Assembly: GCF_029637485.1 (NCBI RefSeq)
Contig: NZ_CP069128.1
Span: forward strand, 2,636,001 to 2,700,000
DNA: 64,000 nucleotides
Direction of reading: 5' to 3'
From: Sphingomonas sp. LHG3406-1
GTDB taxonomy: Bacteria; Pseudomonadota; Alphaproteobacteria; Sphingomonadales; Sphingomonadaceae
The notes under the pieces are model-generated. The model saw only the letters and a program-made list of their open reading frames with translations, made no database searches and was not told where the DNA came from. The position numbers and the translations under genes are program-made. How positions within the stretch are numbered: the stretch's first letter is position 1; every line of letters starts with the position of its first letter. Shown here one piece after another: positions 34,583 through 44,107 of the stretch.

Positions 34583-34658
34583 GGGCGCTTAGCTCAGCTG
34601 GTAGAGCGGCTCGTTTACACCGAGTAGGTCGGCGGTTCGAACCCGTCAGCGCCCACCA
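34583..34658 (+). tRNA. tRNA-Val (anticodon TAC)
   Basis: A 76-nt cloverleaf including an encoded CCA. Acceptor strands GGGCGCT/AGCGCCC pair fully, the D arm is GCTCAGCTGGTAGAGC, the anticodon stem GCTCG/CGAGT closes a TTTACAC loop with TAC at 34616-34618, and the T arm has GTTCGAAC. The anticodon UAC reads GUA and other GUN valine codons. The region on its 3' side starts with an XRE regulator. Confidence 0.96.
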
Positions 34659-37554: not shown

Positions 37555-37950
37555 TTACGCTCCCATCTCTTCGCGGGGACCGCGCTCGGGCCGGTCACCA
37601 CGATCGCCGCGGGGGCCGCGATCGCGCTCCTGACGGCGCATCATGGCCGAAGGACCCTTCTCATGCGCGTCGACGCGCACCGTCATGTAGCGGATGACAT
37701 CTTCGTTGATGCCGGTCTGACGCTCGAGCTCCGCGACGGCAGCGGCCGGCGCGTCGATGTCGAGCATCACATAATGAGCCTTGCGATTCTTCGCGATGCG
37801 ATAGGCAAGGCCGCGCAGGCCCCACGTCTCGGCCTTGACAACGCTTCCGCCGTGCTCGGTGATGATGTTGGTTGCCGTCTCAGCAAGGGCGTCCACCTGG
37901 GCTTGCGCCAGGTCCTGCCTTGCGAGAAAGACATGCTCGTAGAGCGGCAT
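37555..37950 (-). CDS. rpsF: 30S ribosomal protein S6
   Basis: The 131-residue protein starts [16 protein letters not shown] and has [21 protein letters not shown] and [17 protein letters not shown], the S6 signature blocks. The C-terminal 25 residues are an Arg/Gly/Asp-rich tail ([16 protein letters not shown]) that can be modified with glutamate in some species. It is the first gene of the operon, and the 276-base gap upstream must hold its promoter; I see no clear consensus for it. Confidence 0.97.
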
Positions 37951-38141: not shown

Positions 38142-38170
38142 TTGACATCGTCACGCTGTTATGGCACAAG
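38142..38170 (+). promoter_or_regulatory. weak candidate promoter before the portal gene
   Basis: A perfect TTGACA (38142-38147) is followed after 17 bases by CACAAG, a poor -10 element. It lies 57 bases before the portal start codon. The good -35 and poor -10 would fit an activator-dependent promoter, but this is speculative. Confidence 0.3.
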
Positions 38171-38226: not shown

Positions 38227-39339
38227 ATGGGTTGGTTCGGACGCAAGTCGGCGGACCTTCCGCCGCCATTCCTGCCGTTTGCCTTCGAGGAGGACCGGAA
38301 CCCGTTTCCAACCGGACCACAGGCGCAGTTGAACGAGGTTTTCGTCAAGAACCCCGTTGGACAGCGCGCCGTGCGCTTGGTGGCCGGTGCGGTCGGATCG
38401 CTCAAGGTTTATTCGATCGAGGGTGACGAGAAGGCGGCCGGACTGCTCGGGCGGTGCAGCCTTCTCGAACAGGCCGCGGCGTCGCTGCTCCTGCATGGCA
38501 ATGCCTATCTGCAGATCATTGAAGCGCTCGACACGCCGGCGGAAATCTTTCCGCTTCGGGCGGACCGGGTCAGCGTCGAAGTCGACGACCGTGGATGGCC
38601 GCGGGCTTATCTCTACCGGGCAGGGCGCAAGACCAGCCGCATCAGCCGGAGGGACCATCTCGAGCGCGTCAAGCTCATCCACGTGAAGGCCCTCAACCCG
38701 AGCCAGGAGCAGCAGGGGCTGGGTTGCCTGGGCGCTGCCAGTGCAGCGGCTGCGATCCACAATCGCGCCAGTCACTGGAACAAGGCGCTGCTCGACAACT
38801 CGGCTCGGCCATCCGGTGCCCTCACCTACGAGCCGAAGGACGGAGCCGCGATGAGCCAGTCACAGTTCGAACGGCTGCGGCAGGAGGTCGAACGGCAGTT
38901 CTGCGGAAGCCTCAACGCGGGGCGGCCGATGTTGCTCGAGGGGGGACTGCGCTGGCAGGCGCTTGGCCTCACCCCAACCGACATGGATTTCGTCGCCATC
39001 AAGGAGGCTGCGGCTCGGGACATCGCGCTGGCGTTTGGCGTGCCCCCGGTCTTGCTGGGATTACCGGGCGACACCGCCTACGCCAATCTGCGCGAGGCGG
39101 GCCGCGCCTTGTACCGGCAGACGGTGCTGCCCCTGGCGGAAAGAATCCTGAGCGAAGTGTCGGAGGCTTTGTCGGAGTGGCTTGGTCACGTGCGCCTGGC
39201 CGTCGACACCGACGCCATCAGCGATCTCGCTGAGGACAGGGAGAGGCTGTGGCAGATGGTCTCCTCGGCCGACTTCATCACCGATGACGAGAAGCGGGAG
39301 CTTCTCGGGTTCAAGCCGATTGCGGGGGACGTTCATTGA
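38227..39339 (+). CDS. HK97-family phage/GTA portal protein
   Basis: The 370-residue protein matches phage portals: NPVGQRAVRLVAGAVGSL, a central SRRDHLERVKLIHVKALNPS, and FVAIKEAAARDIALAFGVPPVLLG followed by ANLREAGRALYRQTVLPLAERI. The portal is the dodecameric ring through which DNA enters the capsid and is a GTA g3 homologue. No terminase gene precedes it: the upstream gene is the divergent rpsF. Its TGA overlaps the TTG start of the next gene. Confidence 0.92.
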   Translation: MGWFGRKSADLPPPFLPFAFEEDRNPFPTGPQAQLNEVFVKNPVGQRAVRLVAGAVGSLKVYSIEGDEKAAGLLGRCSLLEQAAASLLLHGNAYLQIIEALDTPAEIFPLRADRVSVEVDDRGWPRAYLYRAGRKTSRISRRDHLERVKLIHVKALNPSQEQQGLGCLGAASAAAAIHNRASHWNKALLDNSARPSGALTYEPKDGAAMSQSQFERLRQEVERQFCGSLNAGRPMLLEGGLRWQALGLTPTDMDFVAIKEAAARDIALAFGVPPVLLGLPGDTAYANLREAGRALYRQTVLPLAERILSEVSEALSEWLGHVRLAVDTDAISDLAEDRERLWQMVSSADFITDDEKRELLGFKPIAGDVH

Positions 39340-39656
39340 CCCGCATTTCGTCGGATGAACTGCTGGCCAAGCTGATCGTCAGCGCGGAGGGCCGGCCGTT
39401 CGACCTCGCCGGACTGCGAGCACTCGTTGAGGAAGCCAGTCATGCCGGCGCCATTCGAGCGCTCGCGGTGCTTGGCCTCGAAGACGGCCACGCGCGCCGC
39501 GATGTCGATGAGTTACGCGAACTTCTGGGGACGTGGCGAGACGTGAAGAGATCGGCTTGGCAAGCAGTTGCGCGCTGGATCGTCAGGGTTCTCCTGGCGC
39601 TCGTGATGCTGGGGCTCGCGTACCGATTGAGGCTCACCGACTTGCTGAAGAACTGA
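39336..39656 (+). CDS. DUF6127 family GTA-associated protein
   Basis: The 106-residue product starts at TTG 39336, overlapping the portal stop by four bases. It has a helical N-terminal part (SDELLAKLIVSAEGRPFDLAGLRALVEEASHAGA), a DELRELLGTWRDVKRSAWQAVARW amphipathic helix and a C-terminal transmembrane segment (about 83-100, VRVLLALVMLGLAYRL). Proteins of this kind occupy the g3.5 position between portal and protease in GTA clusters. The role is unknown. Confidence 0.78.
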   Translation: MTRISSDELLAKLIVSAEGRPFDLAGLRALVEEASHAGAIRALAVLGLEDGHARRDVDELRELLGTWRDVKRSAWQAVARWIVRVLLALVMLGLAYRLRLTDLLKN

Positions 39657-39657
39657 G

Positions 39658-40083
39658 ATGCGCAACGAGCGCGCCCGCATGGGCCTGCGCTTCGCTGGCT
39701 ACGCTTCGGTTTTCGACAAGCTGGACAGGGGCGGCGATATCGTCCGTCGTGGCGCTTTCCGGCGGACGATCGAGGCGCAGGCGAGGGTGCCGTTGCTGTG
39801 GCAGCATCAGTCCGGTCGTGTGATCGGCATCGTCGAACATCTGGCTGAGGATGAGCGCGGGCTGCAGGTCATCGGGCGGCTGAACGACGACCGGCTGGGG
39901 CGGGCTCTCGGCGAAGAACTTTCGCGCGGTCGGCTTTCGGGCCTCAGCTTCGGCTACCGCGTAACCGCCTCGGCGCGCGGTCCTGAAGCGCGTGAACTCA
40001 ATCAAGTCGAACTGCTGGAGATAAGCCTGGTCCGGCAGCCGATGCAGCCGCTCGCACGCGTGCACAAGCTCGATCAGCAATAG
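39658..40083 (+). CDS. HK97-family prohead protease
   Basis: The 141-residue protein has FAGYASVFDKLDRGGDIVRRGAF, LWQHQSGRVIG with the catalytic His, and GRLSGLSFGYRVTAS with the catalytic Ser, followed by LLEISLVRQPM, the family C-terminal block. It cleaves the scaffolding part of the capsid protein during maturation (GTA g4). It starts one base after the DUF6127 stop. Confidence 0.92.
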   Translation: MRNERARMGLRFAGYASVFDKLDRGGDIVRRGAFRRTIEAQARVPLLWQHQSGRVIGIVEHLAEDERGLQVIGRLNDDRLGRALGEELSRGRLSGLSFGYRVTASARGPEARELNQVELLEISLVRQPMQPLARVHKLDQQ

Positions 40084-40113
40084 CAAACGACCAATTTTCA
40101 AGTGGAGAAATCA

Positions 40114-41229
40114 ATGGAATTCAAGGCGGATCCGCTGGCGGAGTCGTTCGTGGCCCTTCAGCATGATGACGGCGTCGAGGGGCTGCGTGCCGAACTGGAC
40201 GCGCTCAAGACGCGCCTGCGGCACAATCTTGTCGCCGCAGGACGACCCGATATCGATGCCGAGCAGAAGAGCGCCGGACAGGAGCGCTTTACCGACTTCC
40301 TCCGGACCGGCGAGGCCCTCACCGAAGGCAAGTCGGTCGACAATGCTTCGGCGGGCGCGGGCGGCCTGGCTGTGCCGCGCGAGATCGACGAGGTGATCGA
40401 CCGGACCCTGGTGGCGATCTCTCCGATCCGGCGCATCAGCAACGTGGTCAAGGTAGGCAGCTCCAACTACCGCAAGCTGATCACCAATGGTGGAACGCCG
40501 TCGGGCTGGGTTGGGTTCGAGGCTCTCCGCCCCGAAACCGCGACGCCAACGTTCACCGAAATCGTACCCGCTAGCGGTGAGCTCTACGCCAATCCGGCCG
40601 CTTCGCAGCACATGCTGGACGATGCCCTGTTCGACGTCGAGGCATGGCTCGCAAACGAGATCGCGACCGAATTCGCCCGCGCTGAAGGCATGGCGTTCGT
40701 GAAGGGCACCGGCACCAATCAACCGCTCGGCTTCCTCTCCTCGCCCAACGCGACGGCTGTTGATGCAAGCCGGCCGATCGGCACGTTGCAGACGATCGGC
40801 ACGGGCGTCGCGGGCGGTTTCCCGGCCAGCAATCCCCAGGACAAGCTCGTCGACCTCGTCCAGTCGCTTCGTCAGCCCTATCGCCAGGGTGCGGTCTTCG
40901 TGATGAATTCGGCGACTGCGGCGGTGGTGCGCAAGATGAAGACTGCCGACGGCGCCTTCATCTGGCAGTCCGGCATGGTGGCCGGCCAGCCGGCGACGCT
41001 GCTCGGTTACCCGGTGGTCGAGGCGGAGGACATGCCCGATGTCGCTGCCAACAGCCTGTCGATCGCATTCGGCAACTTCAAGGCCGGCTACATCATCACC
41101 GAGCGGGCCGAAACGAGCATCCTGCGCGATCCCTATTCGAAGAAGCCCTACGTCTACTTCTACGCGACTAAGCGGGTCGGCGGCCAGGTCGTGAACTCGG
41201 AAGCGATCAAGCTTCTCAAGTTCGCCTAA
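40114..41229 (+). CDS. HK97-family major capsid protein
   Basis: The 371-residue protein has a charged N-terminal scaffold region (to about residue 80) that the protease would remove, then VPREIDEVIDRTLVAISPIRRIS, the E-loop region with GGTPSGWVGFEALRPETATPTF, and the C-terminal DPYSKKPYVYFYATKRVGGQVVN. It forms the icosahedral shell (GTA g5). The ATG at 40114 has GTGGAG just upstream; a GTG at 40102 is less likely. The next genes in a GTA (adaptors, tail tube, tape measure) are missing here. Confidence 0.93.
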   Translation: MEFKADPLAESFVALQHDDGVEGLRAELDALKTRLRHNLVAAGRPDIDAEQKSAGQERFTDFLRTGEALTEGKSVDNASAGAGGLAVPREIDEVIDRTLVAISPIRRISNVVKVGSSNYRKLITNGGTPSGWVGFEALRPETATPTFTEIVPASGELYANPAASQHMLDDALFDVEAWLANEIATEFARAEGMAFVKGTGTNQPLGFLSSPNATAVDASRPIGTLQTIGTGVAGGFPASNPQDKLVDLVQSLRQPYRQGAVFVMNSATAAVVRKMKTADGAFIWQSGMVAGQPATLLGYPVVEAEDMPDVAANSLSIAFGNFKAGYIITERAETSILRDPYSKKPYVYFYATKRVGGQVVNSEAIKLLKFA

Positions 41230-41278
41230 CCTTCCTCTTCTTCCCCCGGACAGATCTGCAGAAAGCGCGACAGCACAC

Positions 41279-41791
41279 ATGGCGCAACTATTCACGCCCA
41301 AGTTCGTGGACATGGTTCGGGTCACCACGACGACCCAAGGCACCGGAGCCTTTGTCTGCGGGCCCGCTGCATCCGGCTTTTCGAGCTTCGCGGAGTCCTT
41401 GTCCGTCGGGGACAGCTTCTATTACTCGGTTCAAGGGGTTGATCGACCTCAAGAGCGGGAAGTGGGCCGAGGCACGCTGCTGAGCAACGGCAGCATCAGC
41501 CGTCAGCCTATCAAGGGCACTCTCACCAACTTCACGTCGGGTACCTTCCGCTTCGCTGGGCGTTTGTCGCAGTTGGCGATGAGTTGCAGTCCGGGGGAGA
41601 CGGCACACAGCGTTGGCTCGTGCGCGAAAAGCACATTTCGGGCGAACAAGTCTCGTTGCGGATCGAAAGAGCTCCCCACGCAATCGGAGTCGCCGCTGCA
41701 GATGCCGGAGGACGTGCGATTGCAGAAGGTATTGAGGAAGGCACGCCAAGGGTATTGCTCGCCGAGCTTCCCATGTCCTCTGGGGCGTTGA
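41279..41791 (+). CDS. small phage-type protein with disrupted C-terminus
   Basis: Residues 1 to about 89 look like a complete phage structural module: VRVTTTTQGTGAFVCGPAAS, FAESLSVGDSFYYSVQGVD, EREVGRGTLLSNGSISRQPI and LTNFTSGT, a pattern found in tail-associated proteins of sphingomonad phages. After about 41545 the frame continues as Ser/Cys/Arg-rich sequence up to 41791 that has no such character, while the same DNA in another frame encodes the large tail protein. The last 80 residues are therefore probably an artefact of a deletion. There is no good ribosome binding site. Confidence 0.55.
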   Translation: MAQLFTPKFVDMVRVTTTTQGTGAFVCGPAASGFSSFAESLSVGDSFYYSVQGVDRPQEREVGRGTLLSNGSISRQPIKGTLTNFTSGTFRFAGRLSQLAMSCSPGETAHSVGSCAKSTFRANKSRCGSKELPTQSESPLQMPEDVRLQKVLRKARQGYCSPSFPCPLGR

Positions 41792-42630
41792 ACAGGCCGG
41801 CGCTTGCGATTGCCTGGTCTGGATGGCCGCGAGGATGGCGCCCTCAGGCATTGCAGCTTTCGCTGGGCGGCATTTCTCAAGACGTCGTGCCAGCGCCTGC
41901 GCCAGCAGCCATCGGAAAGCTGACGAGCGCTCTGGCCACGTCTGTCAGTGAGTTGCTCGACCGCGATAATGTTATCGATGTGGCCTTCGACGAAGATCCC
42001 ATGCTCATTAGCTGCGACGAGCCCGCTCTGCTCTCCGGCGCCAATATTCTTCTGATCAATCAGGAATTGCTTCAGTTCGGAACCGCGGAACGGGTGGACG
42101 AACATCGATACCGCTTGCGGCATCTTCTGCGGTGTCGGCATTCGAGTGGCTCAGGCAGAGCGCACGCCATCGGAGATGACGTCCTTTTGCTCAGACCCGG
42201 AACCTATGCGAGCCTGGAAGCGAACGTCGAGCAAAGTGGAGCAGAGGCGCGCCTCACGATGATGGTACCGGATGGCACCAGCACTGAGAGCCTGATCACG
42301 ATAGAGGGACTTGCGACCCGACCATGGTCCCCAGTCCATCCGGATTGGCGTATCGACGATAATGGTCTCACGATGAGTTGGAGCCGCAGGTCACGACTGG
42401 GCCTCGCTTGGCTGGACAGTGTCGATGTACCGCTCGACGCAAGCCGTGAGCGCTACCGAATACGGCTCAGGGGTGACGGGTCCACTTGGTTCGAGACTGA
42501 GGTCGAGAGCTGTTCGGTGTCGCTGCTGCATGCGGAGCTGGCAAGACTAGGAGCAATGCCCTGGGAATGTGAGATCCGGCAGCTTGGCGACTACGCCATC
42601 GGCACGTCGCTCACCTTCAGAATCGAATAG
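41584..42630 (+). CDS. C-terminal fragment of large GTA tail/baseplate protein (g15-like)
   Basis: The 348 residues resemble the last third of the GTA TIM-barrel tail protein: DGTQRWLVREKHISGEQVSL, the LLAELPMSSGALNRPALAIAW block, LLSGANILLINQELLQFGTAE, RLRHLLRCRHSSGSGRAH and the fibronectin-like DNGLTMSWSRRSRLGLAW. A full protein is about 700-1300 residues; the N-terminal part is absent. The frame is open back to 41443 but has no ATG; TTG 41584 is the only near start, so translation may be weak or require a fusion. GC bias is lower than in neighbouring chromosomal genes. Confidence 0.65.
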   Translation: MQSGGDGTQRWLVREKHISGEQVSLRIERAPHAIGVAAADAGGRAIAEGIEEGTPRVLLAELPMSSGALNRPALAIAWSGWPRGWRPQALQLSLGGISQDVVPAPAPAAIGKLTSALATSVSELLDRDNVIDVAFDEDPMLISCDEPALLSGANILLINQELLQFGTAERVDEHRYRLRHLLRCRHSSGSGRAHAIGDDVLLLRPGTYASLEANVEQSGAEARLTMMVPDGTSTESLITIEGLATRPWSPVHPDWRIDDNGLTMSWSRRSRLGLAWLDSVDVPLDASRERYRIRLRGDGSTWFETEVESCSVSLLHAELARLGAMPWECEIRQLGDYAIGTSLTFRIE

Positions 42631-42642
42631 GGATCAACATCG

Positions 42643-43140
42643 ATGGCAACTTCTCCGCGGCTTACTCTGCCGCTTCTCGCGGTCGGCCAGTCGCAAAAGG
42701 AGCTTACGCACAACGAGGCGCTCGTCCTGCTCGACATGCTGGTCCAGAGCGTGTGCGCTGGTGCTCCGACCAATTTGCCTCCATCTGGCCCGGCAGTTGG
42801 TGATCTTCACCTGTGCGGGACTGCGCCGACAGGAGCCTGGGCCGGGCGCTCGAACGCGATTGCAATGTGGAGTGGCTCGGGCTGGCGCTTCATTCCCGCA
42901 TTCGAAGGGATGGCACTGCGAGCGAAGACGAGCGGATTGCAATGGCAGTTCGCAAACGGGGAATGGCGTGAAGGCAAGATCCTTGCGAAGGAACTGCATA
43001 TCAACGATCAAAAAGTAGTCGGCCCTAGATGGCAGTCGATTTCCGATGTGGCGGGTGGCAGCAATGTCGATGCTGAGGCGCGGAGCGCCATAAATCAGAT
43101 ACTCGTGGCTCTTAGGGCCCACGGCTTGATCGACAGCTGA
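42643..43140 (+). CDS. DUF2793 family GTA-associated protein
   Basis: The 165-residue protein begins with the DUF2793 block TPRLTLPLLAVGQSQKELTHNEAL (here SPRLTLPLLAVGQSQKELTH) and LDMLVQSVCA, followed by PPSGPAVGDLHLCG, WSGSGWRFIPAFEGM and a helical C-terminus (AEARSAINQILVALRAHGLID). It lies 12 bases after the tail fragment, its usual position after g15 in sphingomonad GTAs, which supports common origin. It may form a tail fibre or receptor-binding tip; unproven. Confidence 0.82.
   Translation: MATSPRLTLPLLAVGQSQKELTHNEALVLLDMLVQSVCAGAPTNLPPSGPAVGDLHLCGTAPTGAWAGRSNAIAMWSGSGWRFIPAFEGMALRAKTSGLQWQFANGEWREGKILAKELHINDQKVVGPRWQSISDVAGGSNVDAEARSAINQILVALRAHGLIDS

Positions 43141-43258: not shown

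Positions 43259-44107
<849 letters not shown>

Follow-up and report, generated by a model that had tools for sequence, protein, structure and literature searches.

Is a gene transfer agent (GTA) locus that keeps its head genes in open frames and has lost most of its tail a machine in decay, or a new kind of particle? The question is raised by a cluster at positions 38227 to 43140 of the window, the whole stretch of 64,000 nucleotides analysed here (Sphingomonas sp. LHG3406-1, RefSeq assembly GCF_029637485.1, contig NZ_CP069128.1, positions 2,636,001 to 2,700,000). The original prediction, made from the letters of the window, described a collapsed GTA cluster and proposed either a very recent deletion or a retained capsid-only particle. 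The comparisons presented here indicate that the locus is most probably a remnant of a GTA like that of Rhodobacter capsulatus (RcGTA), decaying step by step following a tail deletion of recent date. The genome under study (one contig, 99.98% complete) is designated G000; other G numbers are genomes compared with it, and L numbers are their loci.

The deletion between the capsid and DUF2793 genes

Profile matches bear out the predicted head genes, all on the + strand with intact frames between 38227 and 41229. These are an Rcc01684-like portal protein (38227..39339; PF04860, 221 bits, E 2e-65), a DUF6127 protein in the interval between portal and protease (39336..39656; PF19622, 91 bits), a prohead protease of the Peptidase_S78 family (39658..40083; PF04586, 103 bits; TIGR01543) and an HK97-fold major capsid protein of 375 aa, which is full length (40102..41229; PF05065, 284 bits). 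The closest solved structures are the RcGTA portal for the portal and RcGTA Rcc01687 for the capsid, in the latter case with an alignment that reaches the final residue. Together, profiles and solved relatives identify homologues of RcGTA head genes at this locus.

The gene after the capsid is 714–800 codons long in relatives, and 89 codons of it are left here. This remnant (41285..41545, + strand, codons 3–89) and the remnant beyond it were placed with our own profiles, built from the relatives' fuller clusters (for the first, 108 bits at positions 3–89 of 753); its family is not assigned, and a full-length relative in L033 had no match in Pfam. Homology to the megatron begins 11 bases after codon 89, in a different frame, which places the junction at 41546..41556. 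The megatron remnant comprises codons 375–730 of 732 in an open, stop-free frame (41557..42621, + strand; own profile, 171 bits), and NF048004 matched the frame 41584–42630 at positions 962–1287 of 1299, with 112.7 bits as compared to a cut-off of 800. The DUF2793 gene that follows is complete (42643..43140, + strand; PF10983, 76 bits). In G011, G017 and G031 the same two endpoints lie 8530, 8520 and 8475 bp apart, and the stretch between them holds the remainder of the large gene, a 93-aa gene, gp6, gp7, gp8, the tail tube, a 766-aa tail protein, DUF2163, NlpC and the first half of the megatron (domain names taken from G009-type relatives or from position). The scar is a single internal deletion of ~8.5 kb that joined codon 89 to the middle of the megatron and removed the remaining tail genes present in those sisters. 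The predicted small phage-type gene is not a separate gene, being the remnant of codons 3–89; the predicted tail third does correspond to the C-terminal part of the megatron. If the assumed indel rates hold, a neutral megatron remnant would have an even chance of being broken after 0.007–0.014 substitutions/site, and its open frame fits a young deletion.

Two proteins of the fuller clusters could be described further. The 766-aa tail protein (L033:16955-19255) combines a non-contractile tail sheath N domain, a TIM barrel and DUF2460, and the 93-aa protein (L033:13756-14037) is like the phage GP4 gp77 fibre-tail adaptor.

The excerpts of PMC6821227 give as a criterion at least six GTA genes within one region. 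Counted from the gene list, the locus holds portal, DUF6127, protease and capsid together with a piece of the megatron. The terminase does not stand with the head-tail cluster, and the tail tube, tape measure and baseplate genes of a complete GTA are absent from it; for lack of these tail genes the locus was classed as a decayed RcGTA-like cluster and not as a working GTA.

Tail loss at one site in sister species

The same chromosomal site is occupied in ten species, with a scar in G020 in addition. The left neighbour, rpsF (37555..37950, − strand), is kept beside the portal in all ten, together with rpsR and rplI. In G011, G017 and G031 the cluster has the flanks seen here, rpsF-rpsR-rplI to the left and DUF2793, an outer-membrane beta-barrel gene and alr to the right (names by eye). 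An rpoB tree of 20 genomes gave the clade ((G028,G031),(G020,(G000,(G017,(G011,G070))))), with in-clade support of 91–100 but 65 at the node joining G020. G007 was excluded from the tree; its rpoB (G007:C1:2175462-2179519) lies in two overlapping pieces, through either an assembly frameshift or a real split.

Within this clade the tail genes are kept by G031, G017 and G011 and are gone from G028, G000, G070 and G020. The G028 and G070 junctions run in frame from capsid to DUF2793, at different bases, and in G020 a promoter-like element is soon followed by DUF2793 from about codon 14. The capsids of G070 and the tail-bearing G011 are 99% identical. This identity and the differing junctions argue for separate events; the tail was lost separately in G000, G028, G070 and G020. 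Among genomes not in this clade, the capsid of G069 meets a stop at the point where those of G028 and G070 are cut, and other scars were found in G065, G073, G074, G076, G086, G007 and G062. TerS, TerL or both, or a fragment of TerL, is followed by megatron or DUF2793 remnants in G014, G022, G025, G034, G066, G071, G075 and G079, while G091 has terminase and megatron fragments. The right side of the scar starts in DUF2793 or at a megatron codon of at least 203 in 21 of the 22 scars mapped, a set that includes G010 (86% complete, with many frame breaks that are perhaps sequencing errors). The scar of G014 additionally retains the 93-aa gene.

The order of loss was assessed across 71 genomes of the genus, of which 53 are good genomes (at least 90% complete and at most 5% contaminated; G010 falls outside). 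Matches were obtained in 32 genomes (27 good) for the portal query, in 48 (38 good) for TerL and in 18 (14 good) for the 766-aa tail protein. The 14 good genomes that matched the tail protein query all have a portal match as well. Twelve of the 53 have a portal match, in some instances a mere fragment, without the tail protein, and none shows the reverse (sign test, p = 0.0005; the species are not wholly independent, yet their junctions differ). The distant portal match of G091 (33% identity) was dropped from the 27. The 12 include G094, which lies outside the 22 scars: its terminase, portal, DUF6127 and protease are present, and the stretch retrieved beyond them shows no further GTA gene. Among the genomes not counted as good, G092 (86% complete) and G030 (83% complete) match the tail protein query and not the portal query, although G030 does have the capsid and other genes of the head-tail cluster.

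Any capsid match was present in six tail-less clusters of good genomes, and the capsid is full length only in the genome under study. The capsids of G028, G070 and G069 have lost their last 19 residues, an end that is present in the RcGTA capsid; that of G065 has a frame break, and that of G074 is a 76-codon piece. In L043, L124 and L130 the capsid is cut after the motif YVYFYAT, and two of the three are open capsid-DUF2793 fusions. A deletion hotspot at this motif is possible; no clear microhomology was seen at these cut sites. Selection for in-frame capsid-DUF2793 fusions was considered and rejected, since the G028, G070 and G069 junctions are a few bases apart but unlike, and G069 has a stop there.

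The missing genes were not lost in one step. A tape-measure profile found the gene in G009, G064 and G021 and had no match in G000, G017, G031, G028 or G070. In the case of G011, one weak match lies ~420 kb from the cluster, near second portal and capsid matches, and the tape measure of G087 lacks its middle part. The clusters of G011, G017 and G031 have no match to gp10 or the tape measure, gp10 not having been searched genome-wide. By parsimony, the tape measure and gp10 would have been lost before the deletion seen here, and the separation of the terminase also predates it. The clusters without a tape measure and gp10 (L041, L040 and L042, of G011, G017 and G031), whose tail genes are open and whose tail tube is changing fast, might make a short-tailed particle, and some kind of particle may work in G011 and G017. 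The tail tubes of these two are 61% identical and their capsids 91%; tail tube identity in five other pairs is 92, 90, 88, 82 and 72%, the 72% pair including G087. Defects also occur in fuller clusters, where the capsid frame of G021, the portal of G012 and gp6 of G003 are broken.

One site thus displays a series from full clusters (G009, G064) through those without a tape measure (G011, G017, G031) and those without a tail (G000, G028, G070, G069) to the promoter-like element and DUF2793 only (G020). Such a series makes the order and manner of GTA loss testable in sister species.

The beta-barrel gene on the right (43259..44107, + strand; PF13505) encodes a long proline tract. It has relatives in 20 of the 31 cluster loci scanned, some at other sites; none was found in G009 or G064, although DUF2793 there is followed by alr. 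An Rfam scan of 33–48 kb gave a tRNA gene (34583-34655) as its sole match and no leader beside rpsF.

The separate terminase and a promoter-like element

The original prediction noted that no terminase precedes the portal, which is correct for the locus; the genome does carry one. TerL is open, with 438 aa and both terminase domains, and lies at C1:2303.7-2305.5 kb, ~370 kb from the cluster. It is preceded by a TerS-like open reading frame, named from its position and a weak match to our own profile (43 bits). The portal family, the megatron and the terminase-N family each occur at one place in the genome. The tail tube family, the tape measure and the 766-aa tail protein have no match genome-wide, in searches that do not extend to gp6, gp7, gp8, gp10, DUF2163 and NlpC. 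The proposed search for a second locus recovered the terminase and none of these three tail proteins.

The terminase lies away from the operon in all ten rpsF-side species (G000, G009, G011, G017, G028, G031, G064, G069, G070 and G087), whereas TerL adjoins the portal in 18 other mapped clusters of the genus. The lack of a terminase ahead of the portal is thus shared with otherwise full clusters (G009, G064). The original prediction named a functional full GTA split over several loci in close relatives as evidence against it, and the fuller sisters at the same site, with a separate terminase, provide this in part. The TerS-like and TerL genes of G011, G017 and G070 are at the same chromosomal place as in the genome under study, and those of G028, G031 and G020 share another. 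Since these places differ, the terminase may have moved more than once within the genus. A stop shortens TerL of G017 by 31 codons relative to the aligned part, and TerL of G028 has an internal stop; in G020 (L177) an open TerL remains though the portal, capsid and 766-aa tail protein are gone. Across the genus as a whole, TerL occupies several different chromosomal places.

A 27-bp promoter-like element, TTGACATCGTCACGCTGTTATGGCACA (38142..38168, + strand), marks the start of the GTA operon and ends 58 bases upstream of the portal. The pattern TTGACATYGTNACGCTNNTNNGGYACA, allowing up to 3 mismatches, was searched for in 14 genomes of the genus and matched once in 13 of them and twice in G009. 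In the genome under study the match is perfect and is the only one at this threshold. The reversed pattern gave 0 matches, shuffles of the window gave an expectation of 0, and a generic sigma-70 scan does not call the element. In the clusters compared it stands before the first gene: TerS or TerL where the cluster is undivided, the portal where it is divided, and in G020 what is left of DUF2793. G009 carries its second copy at the terminase far from the operon, and L039, which comes from outside the genus set, carries a pair separated by 2.5 kb, one of them before TerS. The 20 kb around the distant terminase of the genome under study hold nothing closer than 6 mismatches. Between the hexamers, the spacer shows the same degree of conservation as the −35. 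The element is a putative promoter, and it offers a short signature for seeking GTA loci and their regulator.

Decay or retained heads, and relation to known systems

Selection was assessed by omega (dN/dS) from a GY94 branch model, with a joint fit of portal, protease and capsid on a fixed topology, without DUF6127; in the fits of single genes, the branch length of the genome under study reached its bound for the protease. Pairwise omega was at its bounds for many gene pairs through synonymous saturation, and unsaturated values alone were used. On the tail-bearing tips joint head omega was 0.093 (G031), 0.047 (G017) and 0.026 (G011). On the G000 tip, omega was 0.029 for the portal and 0.041 for the capsid, each fitted singly, and 0.050 when the protease was included, with 1 rejected. 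TerL gave 0.119 on this tip as compared to 0.082 elsewhere, a difference that is not significant, again with 1 rejected; DUF6127, fitted alone, gave 0.083 as compared to 0.018, also not significant. As a control, G028 TerL showed an omega of 0.035 despite its internal stop, which indicates that tip omega is blind to recent loss and calls for caution. The proposed dN/dS comparison thus found low omega and no relaxation in the head genes and, with a broken control equally low, does not demonstrate retention. A calculation with assumed indel rates has half of neutral head-gene copies broken by 0.003–0.006 substitutions/site. Low omega and fast neutral breakage together imply that the deletions are very young or that the heads stayed under selection. 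Survivorship adds to this, as old tail-less clusters would no longer show intact heads. The deletion proposed in the original prediction is mapped, and the open megatron frame fits a recent date for it.

Decay would have begun in a common ancestor with the separation of the terminase from the operon, followed by loss of the tape measure and gp10 ahead of the deletion. No normal long-tailed particle would then be possible, and the remaining tail genes would lose their value. Deletion mutants could spread because they escape the cost of particle making and lysis. The head operon is perhaps still transcribed from the intact element, yielding at most tail-less heads, and the head genes would still be open because the deletion is young and there was no time to break them. 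Relatives lost the same part in separate deletions, which points to a decaying machine rather than a newly built compartment, and the decay reading is further supported by the rpoB tree, in which tail-bearing G031, G017 and G011 are interleaved with tail-less G028, G000 and G070. It is also supported by the comparison with fuller clusters at this site, the mapped junction and its span, the different junctions of the tail-less genomes, the absence of tube, tape measure and 766-aa protein from the genome, the defective tape measure of G087, the low tube identity between G011 and G017, and the open megatron frame.

Several observations weigh against decay. Joint head omega on the tail-less tips is 0.050 (G000), 0.052 (G028) and 0.011 (G070), without relaxation, and the element is free of mismatches in these same three genomes. 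The tail genes of G011 and G017 are at low omega (unsaturated estimates) despite the lack of a tape measure. The order of loss has a direction, with the tail going ahead of the head, and random decay predicts none. A rival reading is that selection keeps a tail-less particle of heads, or of heads and terminase: portal, protease and capsid would assemble the heads, the distant terminase may fill them, and the particle would do its work within the cell or once the cell has lysed, a store of DNA or a package of nutrients being examples. For such a particle speak the four open head genes and open TerL, the rejection of 1 for portal, capsid and TerL, the perfect element and the 12 discordant good genomes, in every one of which the tail went first. 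It is nevertheless unlikely: no other tail-less cluster has a capsid that is not cut, broken or missing, the locus lacks adaptor and head-completion genes, the distant terminase does not share the element, the G028 control shows that tip omega cannot register recent loss, and DUF6127 has the higher, though not significantly higher, omega on this tip. The proposed capsid-only compartment kept by selection is not supported, since the cuts in the remaining tail-less clusters fall at different points and their capsids are damaged or gone. We likewise doubt that GTA decay in the genus passes through a selected stage in which tail-less heads, with a separate terminase, are still produced from the conserved promoter and are useful, a stage which, if real, would explain why tail is lost before head and head before terminase.

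A working GTA whose tail comes from unrecognised replacement genes elsewhere is very improbable. The excerpts of PMC9765227 warn that incomplete clusters may hide analogous replacements, and the terminase does sit elsewhere. However, the scar records a loss from within two genes and not a replacement, the sole megatron place is a remnant, and no recognisable relative of the tube, tape measure or 766-aa protein exists genome-wide, a search that sequence-unlike analogues would escape. Least probable of all is an ordinary prophage remnant or an assembly error. HK97-type heads are common in phages and 560 phage records match the capsid, but all of these are below 60% identity and the best solved capsid and portal relatives are RcGTA proteins. 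The same site is occupied in ten species, sisters carry their own, different deletions, and the assembly is a single, nearly complete contig. No phage replication or integration genes were spotted by eye among the open reading frames at 33–48 kb, without a library search.

With decay as the favoured reading, the locus can be compared to known systems. The RcGTA gene order runs portal, small gene, protease, capsid and, further on, megatron. The order here is alike; in contrast, this locus is without tail genes and its terminase is at a separate locus, and the fuller sphingomonad relatives have the 766-aa sheath/TIM/DUF2460 protein and the large extra gene after the capsid. The excerpts of PMC11150451 describe a Caulobacter crescentus GTA (CcGTA) promoter whose −35 and −10 flank a putative GafZ element. 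Both systems have a promoter or promoter-like sequence with a special spacer between the hexamers at the cluster start; the sequence of the element here differs, and its role as a promoter is putative. An "ancient prophage" of Sphingomonadales is the subject of a paper cited in the excerpts of PMC6821227. The decay series is not described in the excerpts of PMC10883770, PMC7947584 and PMC9836097, and a literature search returned no title or abstract opening that describes it, which does not prove that no such description exists. Incomplete RcGTA-like clusters are abundant in alphaproteobacteria according to the excerpts of PMC9765227, and the locus belongs to this already known class; the useful part is the series and the element. 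It resembles those clusters, as excerpted, in being a partial gene set in a sphingomonad, and differs in having a deletion with a mapped junction and several intermediates at one homologous site.

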